Positions 28,633-46,050 of a DNA stretch of 64,000 bases are shown here, piece by piece. Made by a program: the position numbers and the translations under genes. Within the stretch, counting starts at the first letter, position 1, and each line of letters opens with the position of its first letter. Under the pieces are notes generated by a model that saw only the letters and a list, made by a program, of their open reading frames with translations, did not search any database and was not told the origin of the DNA. This DNA comes from Thermoanaerobacterium sp. RBIITD (lineage in GTDB: Bacteria; Bacillota; Thermoanaerobacteria; Thermoanaerobacterales; Thermoanaerobacteraceae). The stretch covers positions 806,001 to 870,000 of the forward strand of contig NZ_LT906662.1 of NCBI RefSeq assembly GCF_900205865.1, in the 5' to 3' direction.

Positions 28633-29823
28633 TTATAAAGAAATTTTTCCCATTACAACAGGGTGATGTGCACCGGTCGCATTAGGAACATTGTTGTAAT
28701 TTCCATTTATTGTTTCATTCGCTAATACCGCAAAGGCAACTGCCTCTTTTGCATCGCTATTATATCCAATGTCCTCTTGTGTAAGCACATCAATTTTGTT
28801 TAGATAGTTCTTTATCATCCTTAAAAGTGTCTTATTATAACTTCCTCCACCACCTATTATAATTTTATCAAGTCCATACTTAGGAATGACAAAATCTTTA
28901 TAACTTAACGCAATTGACTTTGCAGTTAAGGCCGTTACAGTTGCTATTAAATCAAATTTATCAATTCTCAAATTTTTAGCAAATTCCATTAATTTGTCTG
29001 AATATTGTACACCAAAATATTCTCTTCCTGTTGTCTTTGGCGGCATCTTTTTAAAATAGTCATCGTTTAATAGTTTATTGAGCAACAAATCATTTATTTT
29101 ACCTTTTTCGGCCAACAGCCCATCTTTATCATAGCTCATATTCCCTTCTGTTACCCTTTTTGTCACTTCATCAATTACCATGTTTCCTGGCCCATTATCA
29201 AATGCCATTACATCTTCAAGCTTGCAGTTCTTTGGTAATACAGTTACATTTGCTATACCACCTATATTTTGAAGAGCTATCGTCTTATTCTTTTCACGAT
29301 AAAGAAGATATTCTGTATAGGGAACAAGTGGTGCGCCTTGCCCACCAGCCGCCATATCTCTAACTCTAAAATCAGATACTGTAACAATTCCTGTCCTTTC
29401 TGCAATAACTGCCGCTTCACCTATTTGTAATGTGGATTTTATGGAATACCCACTATCTTCAATATCCATTGGAATATGATATATTGTCTGCCCATGTGAA
29501 CCAATTAAGTCAATGTCATCTGGCGCAAATCCCACTTTTTTTATAATTCGTAAAACTGCATCAGCAAAAAATTCGCCAAGTAAAAAATTCATATGGCAAA
29601 TTTTATCAACTGAACTTGTATTAGGATTAAAAAGTTCAAATATTTTCTCTCTTATAGCTTTTGAAAATGCATAATTTTCAAATTCTATAAGCTCAACTTT
29701 AGTATTAACACCTCTTCCTTTTATCTTAACCAGAGCAGTGTCAATACCATCGACAGATGTACCTGACATTATCCCAATTACAAATCTCTCATCTTTTTCA
29801 TATATCCTTTTTAATCTATTCAT
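28633..29823 (-). CDS. anmK: Anhydro-N-acetylmuramic acid kinase
   Basis: The start is ATG 29823 (MNRLKRIYEKD) with AAAGGG upstream; the earlier in-frame starts lack spacing. The 396-residue sugar kinase has the AnmK signature GIMSGTSVDGIDTALV, then GSHGQTIYH, DFRVRDMAAGGQGAPLVPY, NIGGIANVT and the closing GGGGSYN. AnmK opens the anhydro ring of 1,6-anhydroMurNAc and phosphorylates it to MurNAc-6-phosphate, the substrate of MurQ. It is the last gene of the muropeptide cluster, 20 nt after murK. Confidence 0.92.
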   Translation of the reverse strand: MNRLKRIYEKDERFVIGIMSGTSVDGIDTALVKIKGRGVNTKVELIEFENYAFSKAIREKIFELFNPNTSSVDKICHMNFLLGEFFADAVLRIIKKVGFAPDDIDLIGSHGQTIYHIPMDIEDSGYSIKSTLQIGEAAVIAERTGIVTVSDFRVRDMAAGGQGAPLVPYTEYLLYREKNKTIALQNIGGIANVTVLPKNCKLEDVMAFDNGPGNMVIDEVTKRVTEGNMSYDKDGLLAEKGKINDLLLNKLLNDDYFKKMPPKTTGREYFGVQYSDKLMEFAKNLRIDKFDLIATVTALTAKSIALSYKDFVIPKYGLDKIIIGGGGSYNKTLLRMIKNYLNKIDVLTQEDIGYNSDAKEAVAFAVLANETINGNYNNVPNATGAHHPVVMGKISL

Positions 29824-29842
29824 GTTGCGCATCCCTTTCATT

Positions 29843-30769
29843 TTATGATGTACCAAGTGAATTCAAAGCAATACATAAAGCACCCTCTGATGCATCGCCG
29901 GTCAATTTTACAATATTTATATTCGAATATGCCTCTTTTATAAGCCCTTTTAAAGTTTCAAAAATAAATGTATTTTTTATAAGAACGCTTCCACTGGCAA
30001 CAATTGTAACTCTTTCATTCCCAAATTTTAATCTTTTAATCACTGCACTGGATAATTCAAATAATGCCCATGCAGAATTTATAAGTATTTCCTTTGCTTT
30101 ATTATCACCCTTTTGATATGCTTCATCTACTAAAACTGCAAATGATGCTATTTCACTTTTTTTAAGATCATCACGATAGATATATTTCACAAAGTCTTCA
30201 GGTTTTTCTAAATGAGCTTTTTCCATTGTCATAGAAAGCAGTTCAGTATATGGTTCCCTACCATCATAATATCTCAATGCTGCTTTTATTGCCTCAAGGC
30301 CTATATAATATCCACTTCCTTCATCACCAAGCACGTGACCCCAGCCACCTACTCTGACCCTTAATCCTTCATTATTAATCCCATATGCAATAGAACCTGT
30401 TCCGGAAATTAAAGCAACTCCTTCCATTTTACCTGTACCTGCAGCAATTACTATTTCCGCATCATTCGTTACTATTATATTTCCTTTTATGCCTATTGAC
30501 TTTATAATATCTTTTAAAGTATCTTTATCTTCTTTTACTCCAGCCCCAGCTGTGCCAAGACATAATGCAACACAATCATCAATATCTAAATTGGCATTTT
30601 TTATCGAATTTTCTATAAGTTTACTTAAAGATATTTCAACATTTTCCTTCGATGTAGCCCTAATATTTGTAGTACCACCATATCCCTTCATTATAAAACT
30701 CCCATTTACGTCCTTTATCGTCAAAATGCTCTTTGTACCGCCGCCATCGATTCCAATAACATACTTCAT
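29843..30769 (-). CDS. murK: BadF/BadG-type amino-sugar kinase (MurK/NagK-like)
   Basis: The 308-residue ASKHA kinase has the phosphate-1 motif GIDGGGTKSILTI, phosphate-2 ALISGTGSIAYG and adenosine motif ASGSVL. In clostridia this family includes MurK, which phosphorylates both MurNAc and GlcNAc at O6. The surroundings (NagZ, AnmK, MurQ) support that role: it would supply MurNAc-6P to MurQ and GlcNAc-6P to glycolysis. Three nt separate it from nagZ, so the two are co-translated. Confidence 0.82.
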   Translation of the reverse strand: MKYVIGIDGGGTKSILTIKDVNGSFIMKGYGGTTNIRATSKENVEISLSKLIENSIKNANLDIDDCVALCLGTAGAGVKEDKDTLKDIIKSIGIKGNIIVTNDAEIVIAAGTGKMEGVALISGTGSIAYGINNEGLRVRVGGWGHVLGDEGSGYYIGLEAIKAALRYYDGREPYTELLSMTMEKAHLEKPEDFVKYIYRDDLKKSEIASFAVLVDEAYQKGDNKAKEILINSAWALFELSSAVIKRLKFGNERVTIVASGSVLIKNTFIFETLKGLIKEAYSNINIVKLTGDASEGALCIALNSLGTS

Positions 30770-30772
30770 AAC

Positions 30773-32362
30773 TTACATCCTTTCAAGTGTCACGGGTAAG
30801 TTCCCAGAAGGTATATATTTTCCTTCTAAAGCATCTAAAACACTTTCTATTGAAAGTGGGGTATATTCAAATGTGCAAATATATGTTGGTACATCTCTGA
30901 ACATCATAACGTCATATGGATTTCTTAAAGCAACTACAATAATGTTTTTATTTATTTTCATAATGGATTTAATGAGCTTACATTGACCAATATTTAAATT
31001 CGCATTATATGTGCCAATTATTATTAATTTTTTATCAGTTGTTAAATCCATTATATTATTAATAACATCATCATCGGGATTAACAGGTATAGTAATATCA
31101 GCACCTCCAAATCGCTTTGAACATGCTTTTGCAAAAGATATTCTCTCAGTAAGTCTGTCGTCTATCCCTGATAATACAACGGGTTCAGGTGATATTGATA
31201 AAATATTTGTTTCTCTTATAGGTATTTGCTTGAGTTCGTCTTTCACAAGTGTTATGCTTTTTCTACTTACATCTTTGGCAATTTCTACATGTTCAATACA
31301 TCCAACCGTATTTTCAAGTTTATCTTGATCTGGATGAGATTTTTGAAAGAGATGATATTTCTCTTTCATATTTAATATTCGTGTAACAGATTCATCTATC
31401 CTATCTAAAGAAATATCACCAGATTCAATAGCTCTTTTTATCTCACTAAATGCACCAATTTGCAAATCTTTTGTGTGCGATACTAATACAATATCTGCAC
31501 CTGCCTGAATAGCCATAGCTGCCGCCTTTGCTGTTCCATAATATTTTGCTATTGCATTCATTTCCATACAATCAGTCATGATTAAACCATTGAAACGAAG
31601 CTTATCTCTTAATAGTTTTTTAAGTATATTATATGATAATGTCGCAGGTAATTTTTTATCATCAAAAGCTGGAAACAATATATGTGCCGACATAATAGCA
31701 TCAATTCCATTTTTTATAGCATTTATAAACGGATATAGTTCAATATTGAATAATCTATCTTTATTATGTGATACAATAGGGAGGTCAAGATGTGAGTCAA
31801 CAGATGTATCTCCATGCCCTGGAAAATGCTTAGCTGTTGCAATAACCTCCTTTTCTTGTAAACCCTTTATATAATTCACACCAAATTCTGCTACCTTCTT
31901 AGGATCTTCACCATATGACCTAACACCAATTACCGGATTACGAGGATTATTGTTGACATCTAATACAGGTGCAAAATTTATGTTTATACCAAGAGCTCTT
32001 AATTCTTCTCCTGCTATTTTTCCTATTAAATATGCATATTTTTTATCATCTGTTGCCGCAATTGCCATATTTCCAGGTAAATATGTTGCATCTTTATAAA
32101 TCCTTGTAACCATCCCGCCTTCTTGATCGATAGCAATAAAAGCTGGAATCTTTGTATTTCTAATAACATTATCTTGTATATCGCTGTTTAACTTTGCTAA
32201 TTGATACTTCCCATTTACATTTCTTGAAAAAAGTATTACATTGCCTATCTTACAATTTATAACTAAATCATTAATATGATCATCATATACATTGCTTGGA
32301 AATCCAACCATCAACATCTGTCCAATTTTCTCATCAATTGTCATATCATTTAAATCAATCAA
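30773..32362 (-). CDS. nagZ: Beta-N-acetylglucosaminidase NagZ (GH3), intracellular
   Basis: The start is TTG 32362 after AAGGAG. The 529-residue GH3 enzyme has AIDQEGGMVTR, AKHFPGHGDTSVDSH (the Asp-x-His acid/base loop of NagZ) and GLIMTDCMEMNAI with the nucleophile Asp. An additional C-terminal alpha/beta domain of about 180 residues resembles that of B. subtilis YbbD. Unlike YbbD it shows no signal peptide, so it should act in the cytoplasm, removing GlcNAc from GlcNAc-MurNAc(-peptide). Part of the leftward muropeptide operon. Confidence 0.92.
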   Translation of the reverse strand: MIDLNDMTIDEKIGQMLMVGFPSNVYDDHINDLVINCKIGNVILFSRNVNGKYQLAKLNSDIQDNVIRNTKIPAFIAIDQEGGMVTRIYKDATYLPGNMAIAATDDKKYAYLIGKIAGEELRALGININFAPVLDVNNNPRNPVIGVRSYGEDPKKVAEFGVNYIKGLQEKEVIATAKHFPGHGDTSVDSHLDLPIVSHNKDRLFNIELYPFINAIKNGIDAIMSAHILFPAFDDKKLPATLSYNILKKLLRDKLRFNGLIMTDCMEMNAIAKYYGTAKAAAMAIQAGADIVLVSHTKDLQIGAFSEIKRAIESGDISLDRIDESVTRILNMKEKYHLFQKSHPDQDKLENTVGCIEHVEIAKDVSRKSITLVKDELKQIPIRETNILSISPEPVVLSGIDDRLTERISFAKACSKRFGGADITIPVNPDDDVINNIMDLTTDKKLIIIGTYNANLNIGQCKLIKSIMKINKNIIVVALRNPYDVMMFRDVPTYICTFEYTPLSIESVLDALEGKYIPSGNLPVTLERM

Positions 32363-32446
32363 TTAAATTCATCTCCTTGTTAATTCTCAACTATTAAAAA
32401 CAAATATGTTCCCTCAATAATATAAATTATTATAAATTATATAAGA

Positions 32447-33595
32447 TTATTTATTTAAATATAAATGATATTTAACTTTTAGTTTTGAAAATTCTTTACT
32501 GTCACTATTCCACTTATCAAGAAGTTCTTCTGCCGAATACTTCATTTTTCTTAATTCATCAGTTCCTGCAAGGTGATCTATAATATATTGCCCACCTTCT
32601 TTAGATGTTTTCACCCATTTAAAATTATCTTTACTGATTTTTATAACTTCATAAAGCAATTTTACACCTATTTCAACTGAATTTAAGGTTCTCTTATTTT
32701 TAACATGTATCTGTACGCCACCACATAATTGACCGCTATGTTTTGAAAATGACGGAACAAAATACACGGGTCTAAAGATAACGCCTTCAAGGCCCATTTC
32801 ATTCATTACATCTGAAAGTTTATAACCATCCAACCATGGTGCACCAATCATCTCGAACGGCTTTGTTGTCCCCCTTCCTTCTGATATATTTGTCCCCTCA
32901 AAAAGGCATGTTCCATTGTATAAAACAGCTGAATCAATCAGCGGAATATTTGGTGATGGATTAACCCAAAGAAGTCCTGTTTCATCATAGTACATATCCC
33001 TTTTCCAACCTTCTAACTTAACAACATTAAGTTCGCATCCTATGTTAAACTCTTCATTAAAAAACTTTGCTATCTCACCTATTGTAAGCCCATATCGCTG
33101 TGTTATAGGGTATAATCCTACAAATGAACTAAACTTCGTATTTAGAATATTGCCTTCTACCTTAGACCCTCCAATTGGATTTGGCCTATCAAGAACAACA
33201 AATGTCTTATCATTTTCCTTACAGGCTTCCATCGCATATGCCATTGTATAAAGAAAAGTATAATATCTTGAGCCAACATCCTGGACATCAATTACCATGA
33301 TATCTATGTCTTGAAGCATTTCCTTAGTTGGTTTTTTATTATTACCATAAAGGCTAAACACTTTAATACCCGTTCTTTCATCTATATAATCCCCTACTTT
33401 TTCTCCTGCCTGGAAGTTACCCCTTACACCGTGTTCAGGTGAATATAATGCAGTTAAATTAAAATTCTTATTTATGATATCAATGGTAGAATTTAAATTC
33501 CTGTCAACACCAGAAGGTCCTGTAATAAGTCCAATTCTTTTATTTCCAAATATATTCGAATATTCTTCAATAACATCTATACCACATTTAACCAA
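32447..33595 (-). CDS. namZ: Exo-beta-N-acetylmuramidase NamZ (DUF1343, GH171)
   Basis: The start is TTG 33595 behind AAAGG. The 382-residue DUF1343 protein has RIGLITGPSGVDRN, LYSPEHGVRGNFQAGE, VIDVQDVGSRYYTFLYTMAYAM, DRPNPIGG and EGTNISEGRGTTKPFE, as in B. subtilis YbbC/NamZ, which removes MurNAc from the non-reducing end of peptidoglycan chains. No signal peptide is present here, in contrast to the secreted Bacillus enzyme, so an intracellular disaccharide or short oligosaccharide substrate is likely. Confidence 0.88.
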   Translation of the reverse strand: MVKCGIDVIEEYSNIFGNKRIGLITGPSGVDRNLNSTIDIINKNFNLTALYSPEHGVRGNFQAGEKVGDYIDERTGIKVFSLYGNNKKPTKEMLQDIDIMVIDVQDVGSRYYTFLYTMAYAMEACKENDKTFVVLDRPNPIGGSKVEGNILNTKFSSFVGLYPITQRYGLTIGEIAKFFNEEFNIGCELNVVKLEGWKRDMYYDETGLLWVNPSPNIPLIDSAVLYNGTCLFEGTNISEGRGTTKPFEMIGAPWLDGYKLSDVMNEMGLEGVIFRPVYFVPSFSKHSGQLCGGVQIHVKNKRTLNSVEIGVKLLYEVIKISKDNFKWVKTSKEGGQYIIDHLAGTDELRKMKYSAEELLDKWNSDSKEFSKLKVKYHLYLNK

Positions 33596-33622
33596 AACAT
33601 TTCATTCCTTTCGAGACTCAAT

Positions 33623-34687
33623 TTATTCTTCATAAAGAGAAGCCATAACTGCATTATGAAAAATTCTACGAAACCTTAAAATTTTTATATTATTCCTTGT
33701 TGGATGCACTCTGTTTGTTAAAAGTATTATATATACACCATAAAACGGGTCAACCCATAACGAGGTTCCCGTAAAACCTGTATGTCCGAAAGCTTCTTCT
33801 GAAAACAAATCACCACCTGCACTTGTATTTCCCTTTATGCACCATCCTAAGCCTCTACTTTCGCTATTTCCTTTAGTATAATCTTTTATCATCCTCACAT
33901 ATGTTGGATATGACAAGAATACTTCTCCATTTGCCTTCCCTTTATTTAATAGCATTTCAGCAAATTTTATCATATCATCAATCGTAGAAAATAACCCCGC
34001 ATGACCGGATATTCCTCCAAAAAACCTCGCGTTTTCATCATGGCAGACACCACAAATAATATCATCAGAATCTTTATATTTCTCAGTTGGAACAAAATCT
34101 CCTATTTTAGGATTATAAGATGTATGCTGCATATTAAGTGGATTAAATATATATTCTTTGCTTAATTTATCGAGACGCCCTCCTAAAACTATCTCGATTA
34201 TTTTTCCGAGCAAGATAAAATTAAGGTCGCTGTATTCAACAACGCCTACTTTGTTTAATTTTACTTCTTCACATATATACTTTATTGAGCTTTCAAAATC
34301 AGAACAAATTTTGTAAAAAGGTACATATGCAGGCAGGCCTGATGTATGTGTCACAAGATTAAATATAGTTATATCCTCTTTTCCATCACTATTGAAATCC
34401 GGAAGGTATTCACAAATCTTATCATGCATAGATATTAAACCCATTTCTAACATTCTCATAAGCAGTGTATTTGTCGCAACAACTTTTGTCAATGACGCAA
34501 GGTCAAACAAGGAATATCTTTGCAAAGGTTCTTTATATGGCACAATGCGTTTGTTACCTGCAATTTTAATCTTTACTGTTCCATTGATGTCGCCAACAGC
34601 TGCTGCCGCACATGAGAAAACTCCATTCTCTATCCCCTTATCTATCAAACTGAAGGCATTATCGAGCTTTTTTTCATCGAACTTCAT
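33623..34687 (-). CDS. Serine beta-lactamase-family hydrolase, AmiE (YbbE)-like
   Basis: The 354-residue protein from ATG 34687 (a second ATG at 34699 sits too close to the AAAGG) has the penicillin-binding-protein fold motifs SLTK (in FDLASLTKVV), YSDLN and GHTGFTG. Next to namZ and nagZ in B. subtilis lies amiE, an N-acetylmuramyl-L-alanine amidase of this same family, so peptide removal from MurNAc is the likely job. There is no signal peptide, consistent with cytoplasmic muropeptide breakdown. Confidence 0.78.
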   Translation of the reverse strand: MKFDEKKLDNAFSLIDKGIENGVFSCAAAAVGDINGTVKIKIAGNKRIVPYKEPLQRYSLFDLASLTKVVATNTLLMRMLEMGLISMHDKICEYLPDFNSDGKEDITIFNLVTHTSGLPAYVPFYKICSDFESSIKYICEEVKLNKVGVVEYSDLNFILLGKIIEIVLGGRLDKLSKEYIFNPLNMQHTSYNPKIGDFVPTEKYKDSDDIICGVCHDENARFFGGISGHAGLFSTIDDMIKFAEMLLNKGKANGEVFLSYPTYVRMIKDYTKGNSESRGLGWCIKGNTSAGGDLFSEEAFGHTGFTGTSLWVDPFYGVYIILLTNRVHPTRNNIKILRFRRIFHNAVMASLYEE

Positions 34688-34763
34688 AATAACTTTCATT
34701 CCTTTCTCTGATTAAGCATAAAAATTTATAAATGCATCATATTCAATCATGATTTCGGTAATA

Positions 34764-35468
34764 TCATCTTACCGGAAAATAGTCATATACTTGCTTCATT
34801 CCAAGTGGATCTACAGCAAATGCTTCAGCATAAGTTTTCCTCGATTCAGCACCTCTTACAACACTTAATGCACTATAATAATCGAGATATTTAAAGGAAG
34901 GGCTTTTTACTACAAATTCATAAGATCTTAATGCATCTATCCATTTATCAAATGACTTTGAAATATCAACATAAACATATGGTTTAAATTCATATGGATC
35001 TTCCCAATTCTCTGCAAAATATAACCCTTGTACAAAATGAGCCGGAAGTTTTCTTTTGAAAGATTTAATTGCAGCATAAAAATATGCATCCTGTACTATC
35101 CTGTACGTTGTCGCGTGATCCTTATGCATGCTGTTTTTCCAATGCGTTATTATGATATCAGGTTTTTTATCCCTTATTATATCACATACTTGAAACTTTA
35201 CATCATCATTATCAGGCAATTCGCCATCTTTGTAATCAAGAACTATAGCTTTTCCACCTATTTTTTCGGCAAAAGCATTTGCCTCTCCTATTTTTTGCTT
35301 TCTATATTCATCATCTGTCAATTTAGGATGTCCTTTTTCACCTGCTGTCATATGAAGAAGTGTAATCATATGCCCTTCCATAGCATATTTAGTCAAAACG
35401 CCACCACATGTAAGCTCCATGTCACCCGCATGTGCACCAATTGCCATAATGTGTATTTTTCTATCCAT
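34764..35468 (-). CDS. PIG-L family de-N-acetylase in the muropeptide cluster
   Basis: The 234-residue LmbE/PIG-L zinc deacetylase has the first metal motif as AIGAHAGDMELTCGG (AHAGD rather than the usual AHPDD; the catalytic Asp and the Glu are kept) and the second motif MHKDHATTY. These enzymes remove acetyl from N-acetyl amino sugars such as GlcNAc conjugates. Its stop region overlaps the GNAT gene by 8 nt. Position among amino-sugar genes suggests a GlcNAc- or MurNAc-containing substrate; bacillithiol-type BshB is an alternative. Confidence 0.8.
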   Translation of the reverse strand: MDRKIHIMAIGAHAGDMELTCGGVLTKYAMEGHMITLLHMTAGEKGHPKLTDDEYRKQKIGEANAFAEKIGGKAIVLDYKDGELPDNDDVKFQVCDIIRDKKPDIIITHWKNSMHKDHATTYRIVQDAYFYAAIKSFKRKLPAHFVQGLYFAENWEDPYEFKPYVYVDISKSFDKWIDALRSYEFVVKSPSFKYLDYYSALSVVRGAESRKTYAEAFAVDPLGMKQVYDYFPVR

Positions 35469-36489
35469 TCTTCATATCTCCCATTTCTTTGTATTTTGTA
35501 TCAAACTTCTTTTTAAATAAAGCCCATTGCCTTACTATTTTAAAACCAGCTGCATCATACATTCTTCTTGCATAATTTTCAATACCTGTAAATATTGACA
35601 TAAATGACGCACCTTCATTTTTAAAACTCTCACAAAGTTTAAAGAATAAGGCTTTTCCTATACCATAACCTTGATAGTTGGGATCTACACCAATTCCTGT
35701 AAATTTGCCTCTACCGCTTTCCTGGACTTCAATAGGTCCTGTAAAACCGATTACTTTTTTATTATTAACTGCTACTAATACAGGATACGGCTTTGGTAAA
35801 GCGAGGTTATCATTTATTTCTTTTCTCCAGTATTCATTTTTTAAGTTATCAAAGAATTCCTCAAGACCATAATGTTTTTTACTATCATAGTACTCAATCG
35901 TAATGTTTTTTTCATTAAGTATTTTATATTTCTCAATTATTTCATCTTTTATTGAGAACTTTTCAAGGTTTAGATACATTGAAACTTCTTTAGTCCTTTC
36001 AATATATCCCATATTCTTAAAAAAGCCATAGCCTTTACCATGAACATCGACGCCTGGAGCATTTGGATGGTCATGTTTATTTGTACCTGGAATATACCAT
36101 TCAAGATTAATCGGATTAAAGAAATCTATATGAATTTCCTTTTTGCCTTTACCGGCAAGATAATCTTCAACTTTTTTCAATAAGCTCTTTCCAATCCCTT
36201 TGTTTTGCAGTTCTTTCTTAACAAGCACCATAGTAACATATCCGGGAATTGTATCAAAAGTCTCGCCTGGTAGATATGTCTTTCTATAGATACCATTTGC
36301 AAAGCCTACAATTTCACAATTCAAAATAGCAACAAATGTACTTTCATAATCAAAATTAGGATTTCTTATAAATTTATCTAAAAAACTTTCATTTGTGAAG
36401 GGCTTGTAAACGAAGTCTTCATCTATACTTTTATTCCATAATGATACAATTCCGGGTATATATTTATCTTCAAATCTGACTATCTCCAT
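35461..36489 (-). CDS. Tandem GNAT acetyltransferase
   Basis: The 342-residue protein has two Gcn5-related domains. The first has KKELQNKGIGKSLLKKVEDYL (about 95-115), the second has GVDPNYQGYGIGKALFFKL (about 272-290), both acetyl-CoA pyrophosphate-binding loops. It overlaps the PIG-L deacetylase gene, so the two are translated together. One may acylate the amine that the other exposes, but no target can be read. TAGGAAA serves as ribosome site. Confidence 0.8.
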   Translation of the reverse strand: MEIVRFEDKYIPGIVSLWNKSIDEDFVYKPFTNESFLDKFIRNPNFDYESTFVAILNCEIVGFANGIYRKTYLPGETFDTIPGYVTMVLVKKELQNKGIGKSLLKKVEDYLAGKGKKEIHIDFFNPINLEWYIPGTNKHDHPNAPGVDVHGKGYGFFKNMGYIERTKEVSMYLNLEKFSIKDEIIEKYKILNEKNITIEYYDSKKHYGLEEFFDNLKNEYWRKEINDNLALPKPYPVLVAVNNKKVIGFTGPIEVQESGRGKFTGIGVDPNYQGYGIGKALFFKLCESFKNEGASFMSIFTGIENYARRMYDAAGFKIVRQWALFKKKFDTKYKEMGDMKNG

Positions 36490-36529
36490 ATTAATTTCCT
36501 ACTTTCACTTAAAATAAATTTGTAAAAGA

Positions 36530-37186
36530 TTATTCTTCGTTATTGTCTTTATACTTCAAAAGCAGATTATTATATAAATTTAAAAGGAATATCGAAAGCA
36601 TTCCAGCGAATAATAATGGCACACTTACAATTGTTATTAATAACAATGCACTAACCGTTATAATTTGTACAAGCGAACCAACTGTATACAAGCCGTTATC
36701 AAGAAACAGTTTGACTGATGTATTTATAGTCACAATCATTTTTTTGTCTTCATTAATAAGGCATGGTAAAAAGTATATTTGTGATAGAATGATAAACAAA
36801 AAGAGATATGTTTGGATAACTGCAATAATAAATGCGAAAATTGTCCTTACCTTGAAATAATACCACCATGATGACACGGGTATCATAACAAAGAAAAATA
36901 GCAATATACTGTAAAGAAAAGCTCTAAAATAAAATTTCTTTATCCCGGTAAAAAACATACTATATTTAAATGGTTTTCTATCTATCCTTTGCTTTAATGC
37001 ATACATTACACCTGCAAATGATGGTACTGCTGTTAATATGAGATAAAATGGTGCAATATATGGTGTAAATAAAAATATTGCCGGAGATATCAATATAAAC
37101 CACATAATACTTATTAAAACTACATTAATTATATTTTCATAAATATCATGGCCGCTTTTTACAAGTACATTGCTAAGACTATTCAA
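36530..37186 (-). CDS. YesL / DUF624 membrane protein
   Basis: The start is TTG 37186, 8 nt after GGAGG. The 218-residue integral membrane protein has about five spans and the DUF624 pattern (VVLISIMWFILISPAIFLF ... PSFAGVMYALKQ ... NTSVKLFLDNGLYTVG). DUF624/YesL proteins are nearly always encoded with carbohydrate ABC importers and glycosidases, as here, but their task is unknown. It sits between the MsmX-like ATPase gene and the acetyltransferase gene. Confidence 0.82.
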   Translation of the reverse strand: MNSLSNVLVKSGHDIYENIINVVLISIMWFILISPAIFLFTPYIAPFYLILTAVPSFAGVMYALKQRIDRKPFKYSMFFTGIKKFYFRAFLYSILLFFFVMIPVSSWWYYFKVRTIFAFIIAVIQTYLFLFIILSQIYFLPCLINEDKKMIVTINTSVKLFLDNGLYTVGSLVQIITVSALLLITIVSVPLLFAGMLSIFLLNLYNNLLLKYKDNNEE

Positions 37187-37241
37187 TCTTTATTCCTCCA
37201 TACCTAATATTTTTTATGAATTTTAAATACATGATATAGTT

Positions 37242-38345
37242 TTACAACAATGTATTTCCAGTAGCTTTATCAAACAAATATATCTTATCCATATTAAATA
37301 CTATTTTCGCGTCGTCACCAGAAGTAATTCTGCTTTGTGGATCAACTTTTGCCGTAATAGTTGTACCATATTTATCAAAGTATAAGAGATTTTCAGAACC
37401 CAACTTCTCTACAACTTTCACATATGCATCAATTTCTGCTCTGTTTTTTACATTCTGTACTAAATTTGCATCGTAAATATCTTCAGGCCTTATGCCAAGA
37501 ATTAATTCTTTTCTATTTATGTTTGATATTATTTTTTTGTATTTATCAGGTAAATTTAATACTGTGTTATTTATTACTATTTTACCATCATCTATCTTGC
37601 AATTTATAAAATTCATAGATGGTGCACCGATAAATCCTGCAACAAATATATTTACAGGTCTATTATAAAGTTCGTCAGGTGTTGCAATTTGCTGTATTAC
37701 ACCTTTATTCATAACAACAATTCGTTGTCCCAGTGTCATCGCTTCAACTTGATCATGTGTTACATAGACTATTGTTGTCTGAAGCTTTTTGTGAAGCTCC
37801 GCAATTTCTACCCTCATTTGTACCCTTAACTTTGCATCAAGATTTGATAATGGCTCGTCGAAGAGAAAAACCTTAGGATTCCTGACTATGGCACGGCCAA
37901 CAGCGACCCTTTGCCTTTGTCCACCTGATAGTTCTCTCGGCTTGCGGTCAAGTAGATCCCCAATACCAAGTATTTCTGACGCTTTTTTTACTTTCTCGTC
38001 GATTTCCTTTTTAGGCACTTTTAAATTCTTCAATCCAAATGATAAGTTTTCATAAACTGTCATGTGGGGATACAATGCATAATCCTGGAATACCATCGCA
38101 ATATCCCTTTCCTTTGGATGCAAGTTATTCACAAGTCTATCACCTATATATATATTCCCCATTGTCTGTTTTTCAAGACCTGCTATCATCCTCAACGATG
38201 TAGTCTTACCGCAACCTGATGGCCCTACAAATACCATAAACTCTTTATCATTTATTGTAAAATTAGCATCATTAACAGCTTTAACTTTCCCTCTTTTTTC
38301 ATCAATAAATTCTTTTGTTACATGTTCAAATATGATCTTAGCCAT
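37242..38345 (-). CDS. Sugar ABC transporter ATPase, MsmX/UgpC-like
   Basis: The 367-residue ATPase has Walker [10 protein letters not shown] (41-49), signature [14 protein letters not shown], Walker [17 protein letters not shown] and a C-terminal regulatory TOBE/OB region (about 240-367) as in MalK/MsmX. It energises CUT1 sugar importers and lies directly after the two permease genes (13 nt). In many Firmicutes one MsmX serves several importers; here it is encoded with its own system. Confidence 0.9.
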
Positions 38346-38358
38346 ATATTTGTCCTCC

Positions 38359-39252
38359 TCATCCCTTTATTGCTCCAATAGTAATACCTTGTAAGAAATA
38401 CTTTTGTAATGCAAAGAATAGTATAAACATTGGTATTGATGCAATCACAGCGCCTGCCATCATTGGTCCATATTGTGTACTGTCCGCAAACTTAAATGAT
38501 GTAAGACCAACCTGTATTGTCCTCATTGCACTTGTCTTTGTAACAAGAAATGGCCAGAAAAAATCATTCCATTGTCCAACAAATGTAAAAATACCCATTA
38601 CTGCTAAACCAGGTTTTGCAAGTGGTAATATGACTTTTCTATATATTCCAAATTCCGTACATGCATCAATTCTTGCTGCATCAATCAATGTAGAAGGTAT
38701 TGATGTCATGTATTGTTTCATAAGAAATATATTGTATATAGAAACAAGGCTCGGTAAAATAATTGCAAAATACGTATCAGACAAATTAAATACATTTACA
38801 ACAAGAACATATAATGGTATCAAAGTTACTTGTCCCGGTATCATTATTGCACACATCAATATCCAAAATATAGTATTTCTTCCTGGAAATCTGAGTTTAG
38901 AAAATGCGTAACCTGCCATAGATGCAAATAATACATTCGATAGAGTAATAACCGATGCTATAAAAAGTGAATTAAAAAGCCATCTCATAACATACTTGTT
39001 GAATGTAAAAAAGTATTTATATGAGGCTAAGGTGAATTCTTTCGGTATAATACTAAATGTCATGTTAGCTGATAAATTTGGATCCATAAAAGATGATGTA
39101 ATCATCCAATATAGAGGAAATATTGTAAATATTGACCACAATATTAACAAAGTATATATCAATGTTCTTTTCACGTAAAAAGAAGTACCCTTTTTCTCTT
39201 TAAATATAGGAATTTCATTATCTTTTTTAATTAATTCAACAGAAGTATTCAT
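38359..39252 (-). CDS. Sugar ABC transporter permease (AraQ/UgpE type)
   Basis: The 297-residue CUT1 inner-membrane subunit has six spans and the EAA loop [20 protein letters not shown]. The N-terminus (about 50 residues before and including the first span) and the closing [13 protein letters not shown] are typical of MalG-like subunits. With the next gene it forms the membrane channel of the importer in the muropeptide cluster. TAGGAGGA precedes the ATG. Confidence 0.92.
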
Positions 39253-39263
39253 AAAAATTCCTC

Positions 39264-40178
39264 CTAATACTCAACGTCAGAGCCAAGATATTTAAACTGC
39301 AAGATTGAAACACCAACAATAATTATTGCCAATACGAAAGACTCTGCCGCTGCAAAGCCAAAGTCAAAATATTCAAATGCATCTTGATATATAAGATATG
39401 CTATTGTTGTTGTAGCATGGTTCGGTCCACCACTTGTCATAAGATATGCTGTCATAAATACTTGAGATGATCCAATTATCCCTGTTACAAACATATATAA
39501 TGTAGTTGGCTTTAATAATGGCCATGTTATATTTCTAAATTTTGACCATGTGCTTGCGGCATCTATTTCTGCTGCTTCATATATCGTTTTTGGAATACCT
39601 CCAAGTGAAGCGAGATATAGAATTATTCCACTACCATGGCCACCTATAAATGTCATAAGCATTAATGAAAATAACGCGATATCCATTCTTCCAAGCCAAT
39701 TAATATTTGGCATGCCAAATAAGTGAATAACTTTGTTTAATAATCCGTCTGGTGTAGGATCATACATAATTAGCCATACTAAAGACATTGTAACACCTGA
39801 GGCAACTGCGGGAAGATAAAATGATGCCTTAAAAAATGTCTGTGCCTTTTTGCCAAGTTGAAATATTAAAAGTGCAAGTCCTAATGATATCATAATATTA
39901 ACCGGTACTGTACCTACAGTATAAATAAATGTATTATAAAGCGCCTTTAAAAACAATTTGCTTCTTAATATTCGCGCATAATTTTCAAATCCAATCCATT
40001 GTGATCCCATTACCTGATATTGTTGAAAGCTCATAATAAAAGCTCTTAATAGAGGATATAGTGTAAATGTAAGAAATAATAAAACTGGAAGCGCAATAAA
40101 AATATAGCACCATCCATAGTCTATTATAAATTGCTTAACTTTTTCCGATTTCGCGGGATATCTAATAATATTTTGCAT
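39264..40178 (-). CDS. Sugar ABC transporter permease (UgpA/MalF type)
   Basis: The 304-residue CUT1 permease has six spans and the EAA loop EAAEIDAASTWSKFRNITWP. It is 11 nt upstream of the partner permease and follows the binding protein gene after an intercistronic hairpin. Substrate is inferred from the cluster: amino sugar or muropeptide. Confidence 0.92.
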   Translation of the reverse strand: MQNIIRYPAKSEKVKQFIIDYGWCYIFIALPVLLFLTFTLYPLLRAFIMSFQQYQVMGSQWIGFENYARILRSKLFLKALYNTFIYTVGTVPVNIMISLGLALLIFQLGKKAQTFFKASFYLPAVASGVTMSLVWLIMYDPTPDGLLNKVIHLFGMPNINWLGRMDIALFSLMLMTFIGGHGSGIILYLASLGGIPKTIYEAAEIDAASTWSKFRNITWPLLKPTTLYMFVTGIIGSSQVFMTAYLMTSGGPNHATTTIAYLIYQDAFEYFDFGFAAAESFVLAIIIVGVSILQFKYLGSDVEY

Positions 40179-40204
40179 AATAAACTCCCCTTATATTAAT
40201 ATTC

Positions 40205-40230
40205 AGCTTAAGGGCTTACGCCCTTAAGCT
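40205..40230 (-). terminator. Intercistronic hairpin between binding-protein and permease genes
   Basis: AGCTTAAGGGC (40205-40215) and GCCCTTAAGCT (40220-40230) form a perfect 11-bp stem with a TTAC loop, 8 nt after the binding protein stop. No long T run follows on the minus strand, so partial termination or mRNA 3'-end protection is more likely than full stop. This would raise the amount of binding protein over permease. Confidence 0.75.
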
Positions 40231-40237
40231 ATTAATA

Positions 40238-41626
40238 TCATTCGCCTAACATTTCCTGTGCAGCATTCTTTACATCTTGATACATCTTATCTGGTGTAAT
40301 ATCACCGCCTAGTAATGCTGGATATTCTGCCTTAATTACCTGATCATATAATTTTTGAGCTTTTTGTGCTTTTGCTGGATCGATTTGTACAGGTGGTAAT
40401 ACATTCTTAAATAATCTATCAACTTCTGCCTTATTTTCTGGTTTCATCGTGTATTTATCTTTCCACATTGCGTCACCTGATTTAGTAACTTGTGGTAAGC
40501 AGAGGACTTTCGCAGATACACCTGCTTCGCCTGATGTCAGGGCAACAAGTACTTTTGCTACGTTCTTTAAATGCTGTTCTTGACTTACAGGGCCGCTGTA
40601 GTTCTTTTGTTTGTACATTGAATAGCCATCAACACCACCAATAGTAACAGCTTTTTGTCCTTGTGCATGTGGCTCGGGAAGTAATACAAAATCAACTTCT
40701 TTTTGTCCGGCAGGTGCTGTCTTATCTTGTACTTTTTTATTGTTATCACCTATAACAACTTCATAATATGGCATTGCTTTTCCAATTATCATTGCCTGCT
40801 CTGTGTAGAAATACTCCATTCTCTTCTGTGGTGTGATCTGATTCGATTCTTTCGGCATAATTCCTTCATCTATCATTGATTTTATAAATTTCAATGTCTC
40901 TAAGAATTTAGGATCTGTATACATGAATTTACCATTCTTGTCCATTATATATGGCAAACCATTATTTGCATTCATATGATCTAATAGTTCTGTAATATCA
41001 GTACCAGCACCATGGAATACAAACCCATATTGCTTCTTTCCATCTGCATTTATTTTCGTTCCTTTTTTAGCAGCTTCTTTAAATTCATCCCATGTCCATC
41101 CATTTTCTTGAATCTTCTTCCAATCAATGCCAGCTTCTTCAAGAAGCTTTTTATTTCCAGCAATCGTATGGATTTTCATGTAAAGTGGTAATCCGTAAAG
41201 TTTACCTCCGACTTTCATGTATTCTAACCCTGTTGGATAATAATCACTTAGTGCTTTTTTGTCTATGTATTTATCAATGGGAACAGCAAGACCTGTTTGA
41301 ACATATTTTGCTGATGGTACTACAAACATTAAATCTGGTGGGTCACCTGCATTTATAGCTGTATCAAATTTTGTTACACCTTCTGCCCATGATAGGTCTT
41401 CTCTCTGTATCTCTATATTAGGATTTTTGCTTTCAAAATCTGCCTTTATTTTTTCAAAGTTTTGCACATAATCTTTTTCTACTGGAAATGTCCATACCTT
41501 AACAATGTCCTTCTTTGTCGATGTTGTACCCCCCTGCGAGTTTTCTGATGTCTTTGAGCAACCTGCAAGTATTGATGCTATCATCGCCATAGCTAATAGA
41601 ATTGCTAATATTTTTTTTAACTTCAT
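40238..41626 (-). CDS. Sugar ABC transporter substrate-binding lipoprotein
   Basis: The 462-residue family 1 solute-binding lipoprotein has signal peptide and lipobox LAGC near residue 23. Type features are VWTFPVEKDYVQNFEKIKADF, DPPDLMFV, YGLPLYM and GGVDGYSMYK. It is cluster B (CUT1) and should capture an oligosaccharide outside the cell. Encoded between MurQ and the permeases, its ligand is likely GlcNAc-MurNAc, MurNAc or a muropeptide; chitooligosaccharide is the main alternative. Its own promoter and a 16-bp palindrome precede it. Confidence 0.88.
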   Translation of the reverse strand: MKLKKILAILLAMAMIASILAGCSKTSENSQGGTTSTKKDIVKVWTFPVEKDYVQNFEKIKADFESKNPNIEIQREDLSWAEGVTKFDTAINAGDPPDLMFVVPSAKYVQTGLAVPIDKYIDKKALSDYYPTGLEYMKVGGKLYGLPLYMKIHTIAGNKKLLEEAGIDWKKIQENGWTWDEFKEAAKKGTKINADGKKQYGFVFHGAGTDITELLDHMNANNGLPYIMDKNGKFMYTDPKFLETLKFIKSMIDEGIMPKESNQITPQKRMEYFYTEQAMIIGKAMPYYEVVIGDNNKKVQDKTAPAGQKEVDFVLLPEPHAQGQKAVTIGGVDGYSMYKQKNYSGPVSQEQHLKNVAKVLVALTSGEAGVSAKVLCLPQVTKSGDAMWKDKYTMKPENKAEVDRLFKNVLPPVQIDPAKAQKAQKLYDQVIKAEYPALLGGDITPDKMYQDVKNAAQEMLGE

Positions 41627-41649
41627 TTTTAAACCCCCTTATATTATTT

Positions 41650-41665
41650 AACCGGATATCCGGTT
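41650..41665 (-). promoter_or_regulatory. 16-bp perfect palindrome, candidate operator
   Basis: AACCGGATATCCGGTT lies 24 nt before the ATG of the binding protein gene, downstream of an AT-rich region with possible -10 elements. A perfect palindrome without loop suits a dimeric repressor rather than an RNA hairpin. I see no second copy in the window, and MurR-family sites look different, so the regulator is unknown. Confidence 0.55.
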
Positions 41666-41744
41666 ATTGACATGATTAAATATAGTAAAACTTTACATCC
41701 ATTAACAACTCAATTAAACTTAAAAACCAACATTATCTTTCAAA

Positions 41745-42650
41745 TCACCACCTTTCACTAAGTTTAATTGCCTTAGCTATATATCCATCTGACAATTTTA
41801 AAAGTTCCTGGGCTTTCATCATATCAAGACCAGTTACTATCATTAAAATTGTAAGTTTAACATTGTAGTGTGTTTTTTGTAAAGTTTTTTTTATTATTTC
41901 ATCATCCTCTCCTGTTGCAAGTTTAACAATTCTTTTTGCCCTTTCTAATAATTTTTCATTATTTGCCTGTACATCCACCATCAAATTGCTATAAACTTTG
42001 CCAAGTTTAATCATTGTACATGTTGATAGCATATTTAAAACTAGCTTCTGTGCTGTACCTGCCTTCATTCTCGTTGATCCCATTATCACCTCTGGCCCTA
42101 CAACAGGTGTTATCATAACATCAACTACATCTGAAAAACCTGCCTCTGGATTACACGATAAACCTATTGTAAATGTGCCAACCATTTTGCAATACTCTAA
42201 AGCGCCTATTACATATGGCGTTCTTCCACTTGCGGCTATTCCAACAACTGAATCATTTGCAGTTAAATTTATGTTTATCAAATCCTGCTTTCCAGCGTCT
42301 TTGTTATCTTCGGCACCTTCCACTGCATTTCTAATAGCTTTATCTCCACCTGCTATTATTCCAACAACAAGATTAGGATCTGTGCCATATGTTGGTGGAC
42401 ATTCAGATGCATCTAAAATACCGAGCCTCCCGCTTGTACCAGCCCCTATATATATAAGCCGTCCCCCTCTTTTCATCCTCTCAACAATACCATCGACTGC
42501 CTTAGCAATATCAGGTACTACTTTTTCTACAGCTATTGCAACTTTTTTATCTTCATTATTTATCTTTTTTAGCATATCTATGGTATCAAGTTTATCAATA
42601 TCCATAGTATCTGGGTTTCTACCCTCAGTTATTAATTTTTCAAGATTCAT
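41745..42650 (-). CDS. murQ: N-acetylmuramic acid 6-phosphate etherase MurQ
   Basis: The start is ATG 42650 ([13 protein letters not shown]) with AAAGGG upstream; a longer frame would run into murR. The 301-residue SIS-domain lyase has [36 protein letters not shown] with the catalytic Glu, [17 protein letters not shown] and [17 protein letters not shown]. It splits MurNAc-6P into GlcNAc-6P and D-lactate, the committed step of muramic acid use. Encoded 31 nt after murR. Confidence 0.95.
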
Positions 42651-42681
42651 TACATCAGCCCTTTCATGGAAGAAAGTAAAT

Positions 42682-43530
42682 TTACTTATATGTCTTTCGC
42701 ATTGATAGTACTTCGCTGGTATTCTCAAGATATTTTACAACATCATTGTATTTTTTCCTTGCGACAAGTATAAATAGTATGTCAATAACACTTAATTGTG
42801 CAATTCTTGACGCCATGGCAGCAGACCTAAACATCGCTTCTTCAGATGATACAAAGAGATTAATATCTGCTACTTTAATAAGAGGAAATTGTCCAAGTTT
42901 GCTCAAACTAATAGTTGTTGCACCTGAATTTTTAGCTACTTTTATTGCCTCTACTATTTCTTTAGTGCAGCCAGAATATGAAATCCCAAATGCTACATCA
43001 CCTTTCTCTAAGTTTGCTGCCGATGTTAGTTGAACATGTGTATCTTGATATGCTGTACATGGTATATTAATCCTCAGGAATTTGAGCATTGCATCATATG
43101 CAACAATACCCGATGCAGCAACACCATAAAAGTCTATTTTCTTTGCATTTGACAATGCCTCAACAGCATCATTAATACTATCAACGTCAAGCAAAGAGAT
43201 AGTACTATCAATTGCCTGTTTGTTAAAATTCGCTATTTTTTGAATAACATCTGCAATATTATCGTCATCTGTAATACCGCCATCAAGCTTTTTTGCCTGT
43301 TTGGATAAAGATGCTGCTATGCGAATTTTTAGCTCTTGAAACCCTTTTAGCCCAATTGTCCTGCAAAATCTGACTATGCTTGCTTCACTTGTATCACAAG
43401 CCTTTGCAAGCTCATTAATCGTTAGTTCTGTCACAGTTGCAACATTTTCCATGATGTATTTTGCAATCTTTTCTTCTGATGGTTTGTAAGATGGTCCAAG
43501 TTCTTTAATGGCCATTAAAATGTCTTGCAT
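42682..43530 (-). CDS. murR: RpiR-family regulator MurR
   Basis: The start is ATG 43530; the GTG 9 nt before it lies inside the AAAGGGTGG ribosome site. The 282-residue protein has the HTH_6 domain (1-77, with [24 protein letters not shown]) and a SIS phosphosugar-binding domain (about 120-250, [15 protein letters not shown] ... [14 protein letters not shown]). It precedes murQ, the classic arrangement in which MurNAc-6P relieves repression. Repeats in its promoter are candidate binding sites. Confidence 0.88.
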
Positions 43531-44175: not shown

Positions 44176-45261
44176 TCAAATTTTTTTAAACCTAAATTTT
44201 GTTCCTGGTTTAATTAAATCAACCAGAATATGCTCATCATCAGGTATATAACCAACTACATTAACTCTATTATCCTTTGACATATTCGACATACATATAT
44301 TTAGTTCACCCGAGTATCTCTTAAAGCCATTATTGTCTATAGTAACACTGTATTTTTCTCTTCCTATGCAATTATGAGCATATATTTCTGAAGTATTTTT
44401 AAAACACATTCTTGATTCTTTTGATCTTACTACATATTCAGATGCATCGAGTCTATTCGTATGAATGGTATTAAATATTATATTTTTTTCAATTTCAGAC
44501 AAGCAATCGTAAGTAATAATCTTTAATTCAATTACATTTTTATCAATCGAAGTCACTGATTTTATTTCATCTTCGTGAGCATATGCATCCCCAAAATATA
44601 TATCATCAACTAATCCAGAATATATAAAATATTTTGCAGCTATTTCAGGATTTAAATTTCTATGATTCTCGATTGTTGGTAAACCTTCATATATTGGTCC
44701 TCTTTTGCCTTTCTGCGACGGTATGAATGCAGATACCTTTAATCCATATCCTTTAATCATCTTTGTCTGTTCTACGAAAAACCTATATGACAGACCAGTA
44801 TATGGTTTTGGATAAAAATTATGACATGTTCTTAGATTTCTTATATTTGCTCCTTTCTTTATTAAATCCTCGATTAATTCTTTCTTTATAGTACTTGCAT
44901 TTAATTCAATTCCAATATTAAATTTATTTTTAGTCATTATAGCAATTTCATTTGGTAAAAATCCATAATCGAGCCTGAGGTAATCAAATCCTAATTCGTA
45001 AAATGCAGATAAATTATCATAAGTCGAACCAACAATATTTAAAATTTTAGGAGATATATCTACTGTTATTTGCATATTAAATGATTTTATATACTTTATT
45101 AGCTTTTTTATTTTTTTTAATTTTTCTTTATAATTTATTTCTAGCATATTGAGTGATGTAAATACTTTTTCTACACCATTTTCTTTTGCTAATCTTATAT
45201 ATTTCATATTATTCTCTAAAGTAAATTCTTCATTTGAATATATTGATACTCCTATATTCAT
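44176..45261 (-). CDS. mupG: DUF871 family, MupG-like 6-phospho-N-acetylmuramidase
   Basis: The 361-residue DUF871 protein has an N-terminal TIM barrel (MNIGVSIYSNEEF ... VEKVFTSLNMLE ... FDYLRLDYGF ... NLRTCHNFYPKPYTGLS) and a small C-terminal beta domain (about 250-361). S. aureus MupG of this family hydrolyses MurNAc-6P-GlcNAc in the cytoplasm after PTS uptake. Its position just upstream of murR-murQ fits that activity: its product MurNAc-6P feeds MurQ. A PTS EIIC remnant lies directly upstream, so its original transporter may have been lost. Confidence 0.82.
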   Translation of the reverse strand: MNIGVSIYSNEEFTLENNMKYIRLAKENGVEKVFTSLNMLEINYKEKLKKIKKLIKYIKSFNMQITVDISPKILNIVGSTYDNLSAFYELGFDYLRLDYGFLPNEIAIMTKNKFNIGIELNASTIKKELIEDLIKKGANIRNLRTCHNFYPKPYTGLSYRFFVEQTKMIKGYGLKVSAFIPSQKGKRGPIYEGLPTIENHRNLNPEIAAKYFIYSGLVDDIYFGDAYAHEDEIKSVTSIDKNVIELKIITYDCLSEIEKNIIFNTIHTNRLDASEYVVRSKESRMCFKNTSEIYAHNCIGREKYSVTIDNNGFKRYSGELNICMSNMSKDNRVNVVGYIPDDEHILVDLIKPGTKFRFKKI

Positions 45262-45345
45262 TTTATTAGCTCCTTAATAGTTCTTTTATTAAAACATTAT
45301 TGAATTTTTTTATTTGATTATATTTTATCAAATAAAAGCACACCT

Positions 45346-45672
45346 CTACAACAGAATCCAATAAAGTCGTTCATGAATCCCTACTGTCCATAATAAACAC
45401 ATTATTAATACATGAATACATAATCCCCATATTGTGTTTAATCCAAATACTAAAAGGCTAAAAATTATTTGTAAAAATTTAGTAATATCAGAGCCAATTG
45501 ATACTTGAATAAACCATATTAACAATATAACAGCTGCAACTGGCAAAAGTGATATAAAAGAATTGGCTATGGCAGGTATAATTCCTTCGGGCAATCTTAT
45601 GACAATATTTTTCTTAAGAAATAGGTCAGATTTCCAACAATACAAGACATAAATGGGAAAGGAGAATTCCAT
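45346..45672 (-). pseudogene. Internal fragment of a lactose/cellobiose-type PTS EIIC
   Basis: The open frame of 108 residues contains KKNIVIRLPEGIIPAIANSF, LLPVAAVILLIWFI and the conserved FGLNTIWGLCIHVLIMCLLWTVGIH of the EIIC(Lac/Cel) family. It is cut at both ends: residues before KKNIVI do not fit, and homology stops at WTVGIH, followed by eight unrelated residues. About 90 of roughly 430 residues remain, so it cannot transport. Confidence 0.8.
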
Positions 45673-45689
45673 ATTATCCTCTTTGCACT

Positions 45690-45869
45690 ATTCCTTTTGT
45701 CCTCGCATTTATATTTGTATGGATGCCACCGGTTGGGATTTTGTGCAATAATATAGCATTATTCTTCGTTTTTATGTTAGAGGCACTGCACTATTCCTCA
45801 TTATTAGGATACTTGTTGTATAGAAATTATGAAAAGAAAAGTTTTTGTAATTATGAAATTATCGAGTAG
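45690..45869 (+). pseudogene. Fragment of a GPH-family sugar:cation symporter
   Basis: The plus-strand frame reads IPFVLAFIFVWMPPVGILCNNIALFF, matching the third-to-fourth helix region of glycoside-pentoside-hexuronide symporters. After 45776 the sequence departs into a repeat also found at 59383. The C-terminal part of a like protein lies on the same strand at 58698-59321. Confidence 0.55.
45780..45852 (+). repeat. Junction repeat, copy 1
   Basis: A sequence beginning GAGGCACTGCACTATTCCT and ending AAAGTTTTTGTAATT recurs at 59383-59440 with a gap of about 15 nt and a few mismatches. Its TGCACTATTCCT core also occurs at 45684-45695. It may be an insertion-element end or recombination scar. 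Confidence 0.55.
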
Positions 45870-45940
45870 GAGCTGAATAATTATTTCATTCAGCGTCCTC
45901 TCACACCACCGTACGTACCGTTCGGTATACAGCAGTTCAT
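45862..45940 (-). mobile_element. Group II intron 3' end (domains V and VI), relic
   Basis: On the minus strand ACTGCTGTATACC pairs with GGTACGTACGGTGGT, with G-U pairs and a bulge (domain V, about 45899-45938). It is followed by GTGAGAGGACGCTGAAT...ATTCAGCTCCTACTCGAT (domain VI, about 45864-45897), the typical end of bacterial group II introns. The preceding reading NKYLEGIGYKSLSKRYLIVH may be the tail of the intron-encoded reverse transcriptase. The rest of the intron is absent. Confidence 0.65.
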
Positions 45941-46050
45941 TAAGATTTAATGTACAATTAGATATCTTTTTGATAAACTCTTGTAACCTATGCCTTCGAG
46001 GTATTTATTTGTAAGAGTCATATTGAGTATTGAATTAAAATTTACTTATT

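Follow-up and report, generated by a model that had tools for sequence, protein, structure and literature searches.

How would wall sugars be taken up and processed by a salvage operon that holds an ATP-binding cassette (ABC) importer and no permease of the phosphotransferase system (PTS)? This question is raised by a gene cluster of Thermoanaerobacterium sp. RBIITD located at positions 28633-43530 of a 64,000-nucleotide stretch (positions 806,001 to 870,000 of contig NZ_LT906662.1; hereafter, the window), which is part of a 3.40 Mb single-contig genome. Our sequence comparisons indicate, with a probability of roughly three in four, that the cluster is an ABC-type operon for the salvage of peptidoglycan sugars, and that it occupies a site where relatives of the genus carry a PTS-type cassette. 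In our view the operon is genuine and conserved, and represents a variant form of the Gram-positive salvage of wall sugars that relies on ABC import and cutting inside the cell; the substrate of the importer is deduced from context.

The cluster comprises 14 closely packed genes that run in one direction on the minus strand, from MurR to AnmK (Table 1). MurR is followed by MurQ, a lipoprotein solute-binding protein (SBP), two permeases, an ATPase, a small membrane protein and a tandem GNAT acetyltransferase, and then by PIG-L, an AmiE-like protein, NamZ, NagZ, a MurK-like kinase and AnmK. Several adjacent genes overlap or lie no more than 20 bases apart, and this tight spacing suggests that they form one operon. 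A first-pass annotation of the window had already gathered MurR, MurQ, a CUT1-type importer, the AmiE-like protein, NamZ, NagZ, MurK and AnmK on one strand. All of these genes are present, with families assigned by Pfam or equivalog cut-offs and, for the kinase, by PDB 8zo3. The full-length similarity to this kinase of N-acetylmuramic acid (MurNAc) and N-acetylglucosamine (GlcNAc) fits a putative MurK-type enzyme. The importer indeed consists of an SBP_bac_1 lipoprotein, two BPD_transp_1 permeases and a MalK-type ATPase. The earlier list was nevertheless incomplete, as it missed the membrane protein, the GNAT and PIG-L genes, and the MupG gene just upstream. Of note, the MurQ coordinates are those of the longest frame, and its true start is probably near 42650, judging from where the alignment begins.

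Two findings bear on the chemistry of the route. MurQ scores above its family cut-off, and a NagA gene lies outside the window (C1:653092-654207; TIGR00221, 380 bits, cut-off 226), a combination that would equip the genome for MurQ-dependent salvage of MurNAc. The glucose-family PTS_EIIB domain (PF00367), which the MurP of the relatives carries, is absent from the genome; of 14 control genomes, 5 gave a match, B. subtilis among them. Hence, the genome has no MurP. This family search supersedes a single-protein MurP query of the same genome, which returned nothing and had no positive control. In the window, tblastn found no trace of the MurP of loci L188 or L196, or of the L188 EIIA. The genome thus holds MupG and lacks the MurP that accompanies it in the S. 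aureus type, and it shows neither the MurP EIIBC nor the AmiE, NagZ and NamZ signal peptides of the B. subtilis type. AnmK and NagZ, which also belong to recycling of anhydromuropeptides of the AmpG type, are both present. NamZ itself occurs once in the genome. It is found in 4 of the 24 genomes of the order, this one included, and in none of the eight other genus members examined.

The NamZ, NagZ and AmiE-like enzymes are predicted to be cytosolic. Upstream of each start the frame is closed by a stop within 50 codons, so no longer start could add a signal peptide. Moreover, their N-termini show no uncharged hydrophobic stretch before the domain, according to a hydropathy heuristic of our own rather than SignalP. 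The AmiE-like start matches a loose lipobox pattern, which we read as part of the domain because PF00144 begins at residue 24. These data agree with the earlier claim that none of the three enzymes carries a signal peptide. Two GH3 paralogues of the same genome were considered as exported NagZ candidates and set aside; they share 30% identity and, at 710 and 718 aa, have frames that exceed NagZ in length.

The site of the operon was compared with that in relatives. At the same place, beside a 5'-nucleotidase gene, seven of eight genus relatives carry a PTS-type cassette of MurR, EIIA (165 aa), PTS EIIBC (457 aa), MupG and MurQ. EIIBC, MupG and MurQ are found in 7/7 of these relatives, and MurR with EIIA in 6/7; the G018 contig stops short of MurR and EIIA, which leaves a single flank visible, and in G016 MurQ appears as a shortened open reading frame (ORF). 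The PTS_EIIA_1, EIIB, EIIC and MupG domains were confirmed on sampled members. In the eighth relative (G021) no MurQ exceeds the cut-off, and the locus of this genome lies outside the comparison. When compared with G019, the flanks of the window are 93-98% (19310-23555), 89-95% (48045-52423) and 98.2% (54162-55154) identical, and within the cassette only MurQ, MurR and MupG align, in patches of 72-74%. The nucleotidase gene (23706-27380) encodes a large protein that, by reading, resembles 5'-nucleotidases and has a signal-like start. It aligns at just 76-78% DNA identity in all seven PTS-type relatives, although its outer neighbours are 83-93% identical to genus copies, and the exchanged block may therefore extend over it. 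Also by reading, there is a transposase-like ORF (52556-54040) near a PTS block beside the exchanged site, together with a fragment resembling its end (58299-58520).

A similar situation is found in the sister genus, which includes Caldanaerobacter. Here, the ABC-type G005 and the PTS-type G012 share 98.2% identity over 3854 bases, and this similarity stops just before MurR. On the downstream side, G005 and G008 share patches of 86-94% identity, of which the longest spans 3295 bases at 93.6%. The G008 contig starts within an EIIC gene, after which come MupG and MurQ. Between this MurQ and the matching patches lie about 9 kb of other genes; in G005, the distance from cassette to patches is about 4 kb. 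In the MurQ tree, the window groups with G005, G009 and G011, all with hydrolase or ABC-type cassettes, in a clade with support 97/96, and the PTS-type MurQ proteins of both genera fall separately (93/93, not starred). The approximately unbiased test rejected a single MurQ clade for the own genus (p=2e-05) and for the sister genus (p=5e-06), with groups that were taxonomic but chosen after the tree had been viewed. Within the family, MurQ sorts by cassette type rather than by genus. Altogether, these comparisons point to an apparent exchange in situ of PTS-type and ABC-type salvage cassettes, and a swap of one for the other would explain the gene content of the window operon. This pattern is compatible both with exchange between genomes and with an ancient coexistence followed by differential loss.

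What the importer carries is best approached through its relatives. Proteins related to the SBP were seen at no fewer than seven loci, the window included. Six of seven hold MurQ and other salvage genes, and these six come from several families and one plasmid; at the seventh (G231, L060) the contig ends beside the SBP gene. This linkage is the main evidence on the cargo, and we infer from it that the importer carries peptidoglycan disaccharides. Counting the own genome, relatives at E up to 1e-30 occur in 2/37 genomes of the class and in at least 4/398 of the phylum sample, a search that scored up to four candidates per genome and may miss some. In G005 the same order is found: MurR, MurQ, SBP (83% identical), permeases, ATPase, membrane protein, AmiE, NamZ, NagZ, MurK and AnmK, with GNAT, PIG-L and GNAT after AnmK. 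Such a near-identical order argues that the arrangement is not due to chance. More distant forms exist in Bacillus REN16 (with NamZ, NagZ and AmiE), in G101 and in G113, where the stretch has no NamZ. In addition, a plasmid of Paenibacillus guangzhouensis carries annotated MurR, murQ, SBP, two permeases, AnmK, GNAT, PIG-L, DUF1343 (NamZ) and a BadF protein. As a side observation, DUF3604 proteins of about 800 aa adjoin the importer at L059:3768-6203 (G113) and L060:4258-6663 (G231) and could represent an extra salvage enzyme.

The importer also behaves as a separable module. From AmiE onward, G005 and G009 share 96.5% identity over 9 kb, and importer genes are lacking in both G009 and G011; the importer is absent from the cassette at L053 and L054. 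G009 has no second MurQ over the cut-off. G011 has a shortened NagZ frame that is not followed by MurK or AnmK; the same genes are seen in a C. subterraneus record (L003). A PTS-type cassette is also retained in G011, with MurQ read as a pair of ORFs (L200:4212-5119), and the MurQ of the second, hydrolase-type cassette of this genome is full-length.

A survey of NamZ across the phylum places the operon in a wider frame. The search matched 85 of 398 genomes, with 110 matches in total. Of these, 99 were taken into the analysis and two ORFs from G005 and G011 were added, making 101. The 11 left out are eight partial matches and the full or nearly full ones of G118, G179 (contig end) and G292 contig 16. 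The calls of signal peptides rely on our hydropathy rule, and long ORFs (e.g., L101, L146 and L176) have uncertain starts. By this rule, 45 of the 101 ORFs lack a signal-like N-terminus and 56 have one. A MurK- or AnmK-like gene on the same strand is found no more than 9.5 kb away in 13/45 unsignalled and 1/56 signalled cases (by family, 9/21 and 1/30). A CUT1 permease pair plus a salvage gene is found near NamZ in 12/45 and 2/56 (by family, the pair is linked in 8/21 and 2/30). Conversely, MurP-like PTS genes occur at six loci of the 102-locus NamZ/SBP set, with a signalled NamZ in 6/6 (p=0.03), and beside 0/45 unsignalled NamZ ORFs. Signal state is concordant in 22 of 26 NamZ/NagZ pairs and in 21 of 22 NamZ/AmiE pairs. 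The pattern is real by count, but a few old events may lie behind it.

From these elements a salvage route can be proposed. Extracellular wall turnover would release disaccharides, which the lipoprotein would capture and the CUT1 importer would bring in unphosphorylated. Inside the cell, NamZ would split MurNAc-GlcNAc, a specificity that we take to be that of the family, NagZ would split GlcNAc-MurNAc, and the AmiE-like enzyme would strip any peptide. MurK would then phosphorylate free MurNAc and GlcNAc, and AnmK would convert anhydro-MurNAc into MurNAc-6P. MurQ would turn MurNAc-6P into GlcNAc-6P and D-lactate, from where NagA would take over. In the PTS route a phosphorylated disaccharide is handed to MupG. 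An ABC importer does not phosphorylate, so the cassette would need NamZ as a counterpart for the unphosphorylated disaccharide, and the separate kinases MurK and AnmK. The gene content of the ABC cassette, judged from family functions, matches these needs.

Other cargoes have to be weighed. One possibility, which we consider improbable, is that the main cargo consists of muropeptides that still bear peptide, or of anhydro-muropeptides, as for YejBEF-YepA, and that AmiE and AnmK perform the key initial steps. Such a route partly coincides with import of disaccharides and differs in the main substrate. Both the AmiE-like and AnmK genes would suit it, and the Agrobacterium system provides an ABC precedent (PMC9790009). 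However, SBP_bac_1 is a sugar-type family, whereas YepA works with a peptide transporter according to the same source, and beyond the AmiE-like protein no scanned operon protein matches a peptidase family. It is quite unlikely that the importer carries free monosaccharides (MurNAc and GlcNAc) released outside by other hydrolases, and that cytosolic NamZ and NagZ serve other intracellular substrates or are relics. Cleavage outside would need a signalled NamZ, as at the MurP-type loci, and NamZ, NagZ and AmiE are intact and adjacent in G005 and present in the distant form of Bacillus REN16; in favour of this reading are the fit of a MurK-type kinase with entry of free sugars, and G009 and G011, where hydrolases retained without importer show that the modules can part. 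Finally, an importer for an unrelated oligosaccharide, in the operon by accident, is hard to reconcile with MurQ at six of the seven related loci, even if this importer has no close relative of known specificity and can be missing from the cassette, and we give it very little credence.

Several observations weigh against import of disaccharides through an exchanged ABC cassette. The PDB matches of the SBP are confined to remote sugar-binding proteins of diverse types (best, 62 bits) and point to no particular substrate, and its AlphaFold model, built from nine sequences, is poor (mean predicted local distance difference test score, pLDDT, of 59). The cytosolic hydrolase cassettes of G009 and G011 have no ABC genes, and the former, with neither these nor a second MurQ, suggests that the hydrolases do not strictly depend on this importer. 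Among the unsignalled NamZ ORFs, 33/45 are without a permease pair and salvage gene within 9.5 kb. Signal state shifts just seven times on the NamZ tree, leaving too few informative independent pairs, and repeated co-evolution of signal state with kinase or ABC linkage was thus not supported by the independent-pairs test. As for the exchange, the two flanks are never seen together in one PTS-type genome of the sister genus, and the MurQ proteins of distant ABC-type operons (L007, L058, L059 and L187) do not group with that of the window. A MupG gene persists beside the operon with no MurP partner in the genome, and the PIG-L and GNAT genes remain without explanation.

The B. subtilis cluster has the order MurQ-MurR-MurP-AmiE-NagZ-NamZ. 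The enzyme families MurQ, MurR, AmiE, NagZ and NamZ are common to both systems; B. subtilis combines exported hydrolases with PTS import, whereas the window combines unsignalled hydrolases with a CUT1 ABC importer. Loci of the B. subtilis type (L093, L096 and L099) show signalled NamZ, NagZ and AmiE together with PTS EIIBC. The contrast with secreted enzymes and MurP entry drawn in the first-pass annotation is therefore borne out, both by the absence of PF00367 and by the distribution of MurP-like genes in the NamZ survey. A closer comparison is offered by the S. aureus-type MurR-MurP-MupG-MurQ cassette, which genus relatives carry at this very site. In S. aureus, according to PMC6262408, MurP imports MurNAc-GlcNAc with phosphorylation and MupG cuts MurNAc-6P-GlcNAc. 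Relative to the system described there, the window shares MurQ, MurR and, as proposed here, a disaccharide imported whole and then cut inside, and has a MupG family member near the operon. It lacks MurP, has NamZ and MurK in place of MupG and PTS phosphorylation, and adds NagZ, AmiE, AnmK, PIG-L and GNAT. With NamZ in place of MupG, the imported piece is no less likely to be MurNAc-GlcNAc than the GlcNAc-MurNAc(-peptide) suggested earlier. The arrangement had also been presented as a distinct wall-recycling design; cytosolic hydrolases with a CUT1 importer stand, and uniqueness does not, given related MurQ operons in five other genomes or plasmids.

In C. acetobutylicum, MurK is clustered with NagZ. 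The C. acetobutylicum kinase acts on MurNAc and GlcNAc, as described in PMC5790795, and the PDB entry that the window kinase resembles, 8zo3, bears that name. The Agrobacterium YejBEF-YepA system likewise imports wall fragments through an ABC transporter for a cytosolic NagZ; its transporter and binding protein are of peptide type and its host Gram-negative, and those of the window are of sugar type (PMC9790009). A review of cell-wall hydrolases assigns wall amino sugars to PTS permeases and wall peptides to ABC transporters (PMC6403190). Unlike this assignment, the window operon suggests uptake through a sugar-type ABC importer and cutting within the cell. Our literature searches, which did not cover most subscription papers, found no description of this ABC arrangement, and we do not claim its absence from print. 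Exchange between close relatives amounts to a natural experiment, with equal flanks and end product and different import chemistry. If true, NamZ versus MupG and MurK versus PTS phosphorylation would serve as genome markers of the mode of wall-sugar uptake. A bolder proposal, doubtful when taken as a whole, is that the salvage site is exchangeable, with a phosphorylating PTS cassette (MurP-MupG) and a non-phosphorylating ABC cassette (NamZ-MurK) as functional equivalents swapped at least twice in the family. Natural strain pairs would then exist whose import chemistry differs at this one locus, and in the ABC form PIG-L and the tandem GNAT would tune how far imported amino sugars are N-acetylated, so that NagZ and NamZ could cut wall pieces that have lost part of their N-acetyl groups.

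Table 1. Genes of the salvage operon and adjoining features (window coordinates).
Feature	Coordinates	Strand	Evidence and remarks
MurR-like RpiR-family regulator	42682..43530	-	Pfam HTH_6 + SIS; ATG start at 43530
MurQ, MurNAc-6P etherase	41745..42728	-	TIGR00274, 415 bits (cut-off 302)
Solute-binding lipoprotein	40238..41626	-	Pfam SBP_bac_1 (CUT1); peptidoglycan-disaccharide substrate suggested by context
CUT1 permease 1	39264..40178	-	PF00528
CUT1 permease 2	38359..39252	-	PF00528
MsmX/MalK-type ATPase	37242..38345	-	ABC_tran + OB_MalK
Small membrane protein accompanying importer	36530..37186	-	Homologue adjoins ATPase in L052, L007, L058
Tandem GNAT acetyltransferase	35461..36489	-	PF00583, two stretches
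PIG-L/LmbE family de-N-acetylase	34764..35468	-	PF02585; best PDB LmbE 2ixd, 63 bits
AmiE-like beta-lactamase-family amidase (putative activity), predicted cytosolic	33623..34699	-	PF00144, motifs
NamZ exo-beta-N-acetylmuramidase, predicted cytosolic	32447..33595	-	NamZ_N 297 bits, NamZ_C 175 bits
NagZ-type GH3 beta-N-acetylglucosaminidase, predicted cytosolic	30773..32362	-	PRK05337, 225.7 bits (cut-off 207)
MurK-like MurNAc/GlcNAc kinase (BadF family)	29843..30769	-	PDB 8zo3, 239 bits, residues 1-302
AnmK, anhydro-MurNAc kinase	28633..29856	-	NF007151, 660 bits (cut-off 599)
MupG-family 6-phospho-N-acetylmuramidase	44176..45261	-	MupG_N + MupG_C; just upstream of operon
PTS EIIC fragment, not MurP	45346..45672	-	PF02378, positions 136-220 of 319

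Some individual features deserve mention. The NagZ-type protein contains the motif KHFPGHGD, and the AmiE-like protein bears SLTK, YSD and HTG motifs, which we take to be catalytic. The small membrane protein gave zero Pfam matches and is presumably DUF624-like. Rfam and tRNA scans of the window gave 0 matches. Upstream of the operon, MupG is 63% identical to the MupG of genus relatives, and the adjoining GH4 gene is 94-96% identical to genus copies. The EIIC fragment was considered as a remnant of MurP and rejected, since it is 55% identical to the L189 EIIC and does not match the MurP of L188 or L196. The stretch that holds this broken fragment (45262-46050) may be a decayed PTS gene.

With respect to the PIG-L and GNAT pair, a role of PIG-L as a substitute for NagA is unnecessary, as the genome has NagA. 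An assignment of the GNAT to a mycothiol-type MshD, which we presume to share the tandem architecture, was also dropped: a search of the PDB with E values up to 0.01 found just two weak matches, neither so named. The PIG-L gene adjoins the tandem GNAT, and PIG-L homologues lie near NamZ at 8/45 unsignalled and 1/56 signalled loci; by family, the counts are 5/21 and 1/30 (p=0.07). Elsewhere in the window (59502-62952), two lipoproteins read like oligopeptide-binding proteins and could serve wall peptides.

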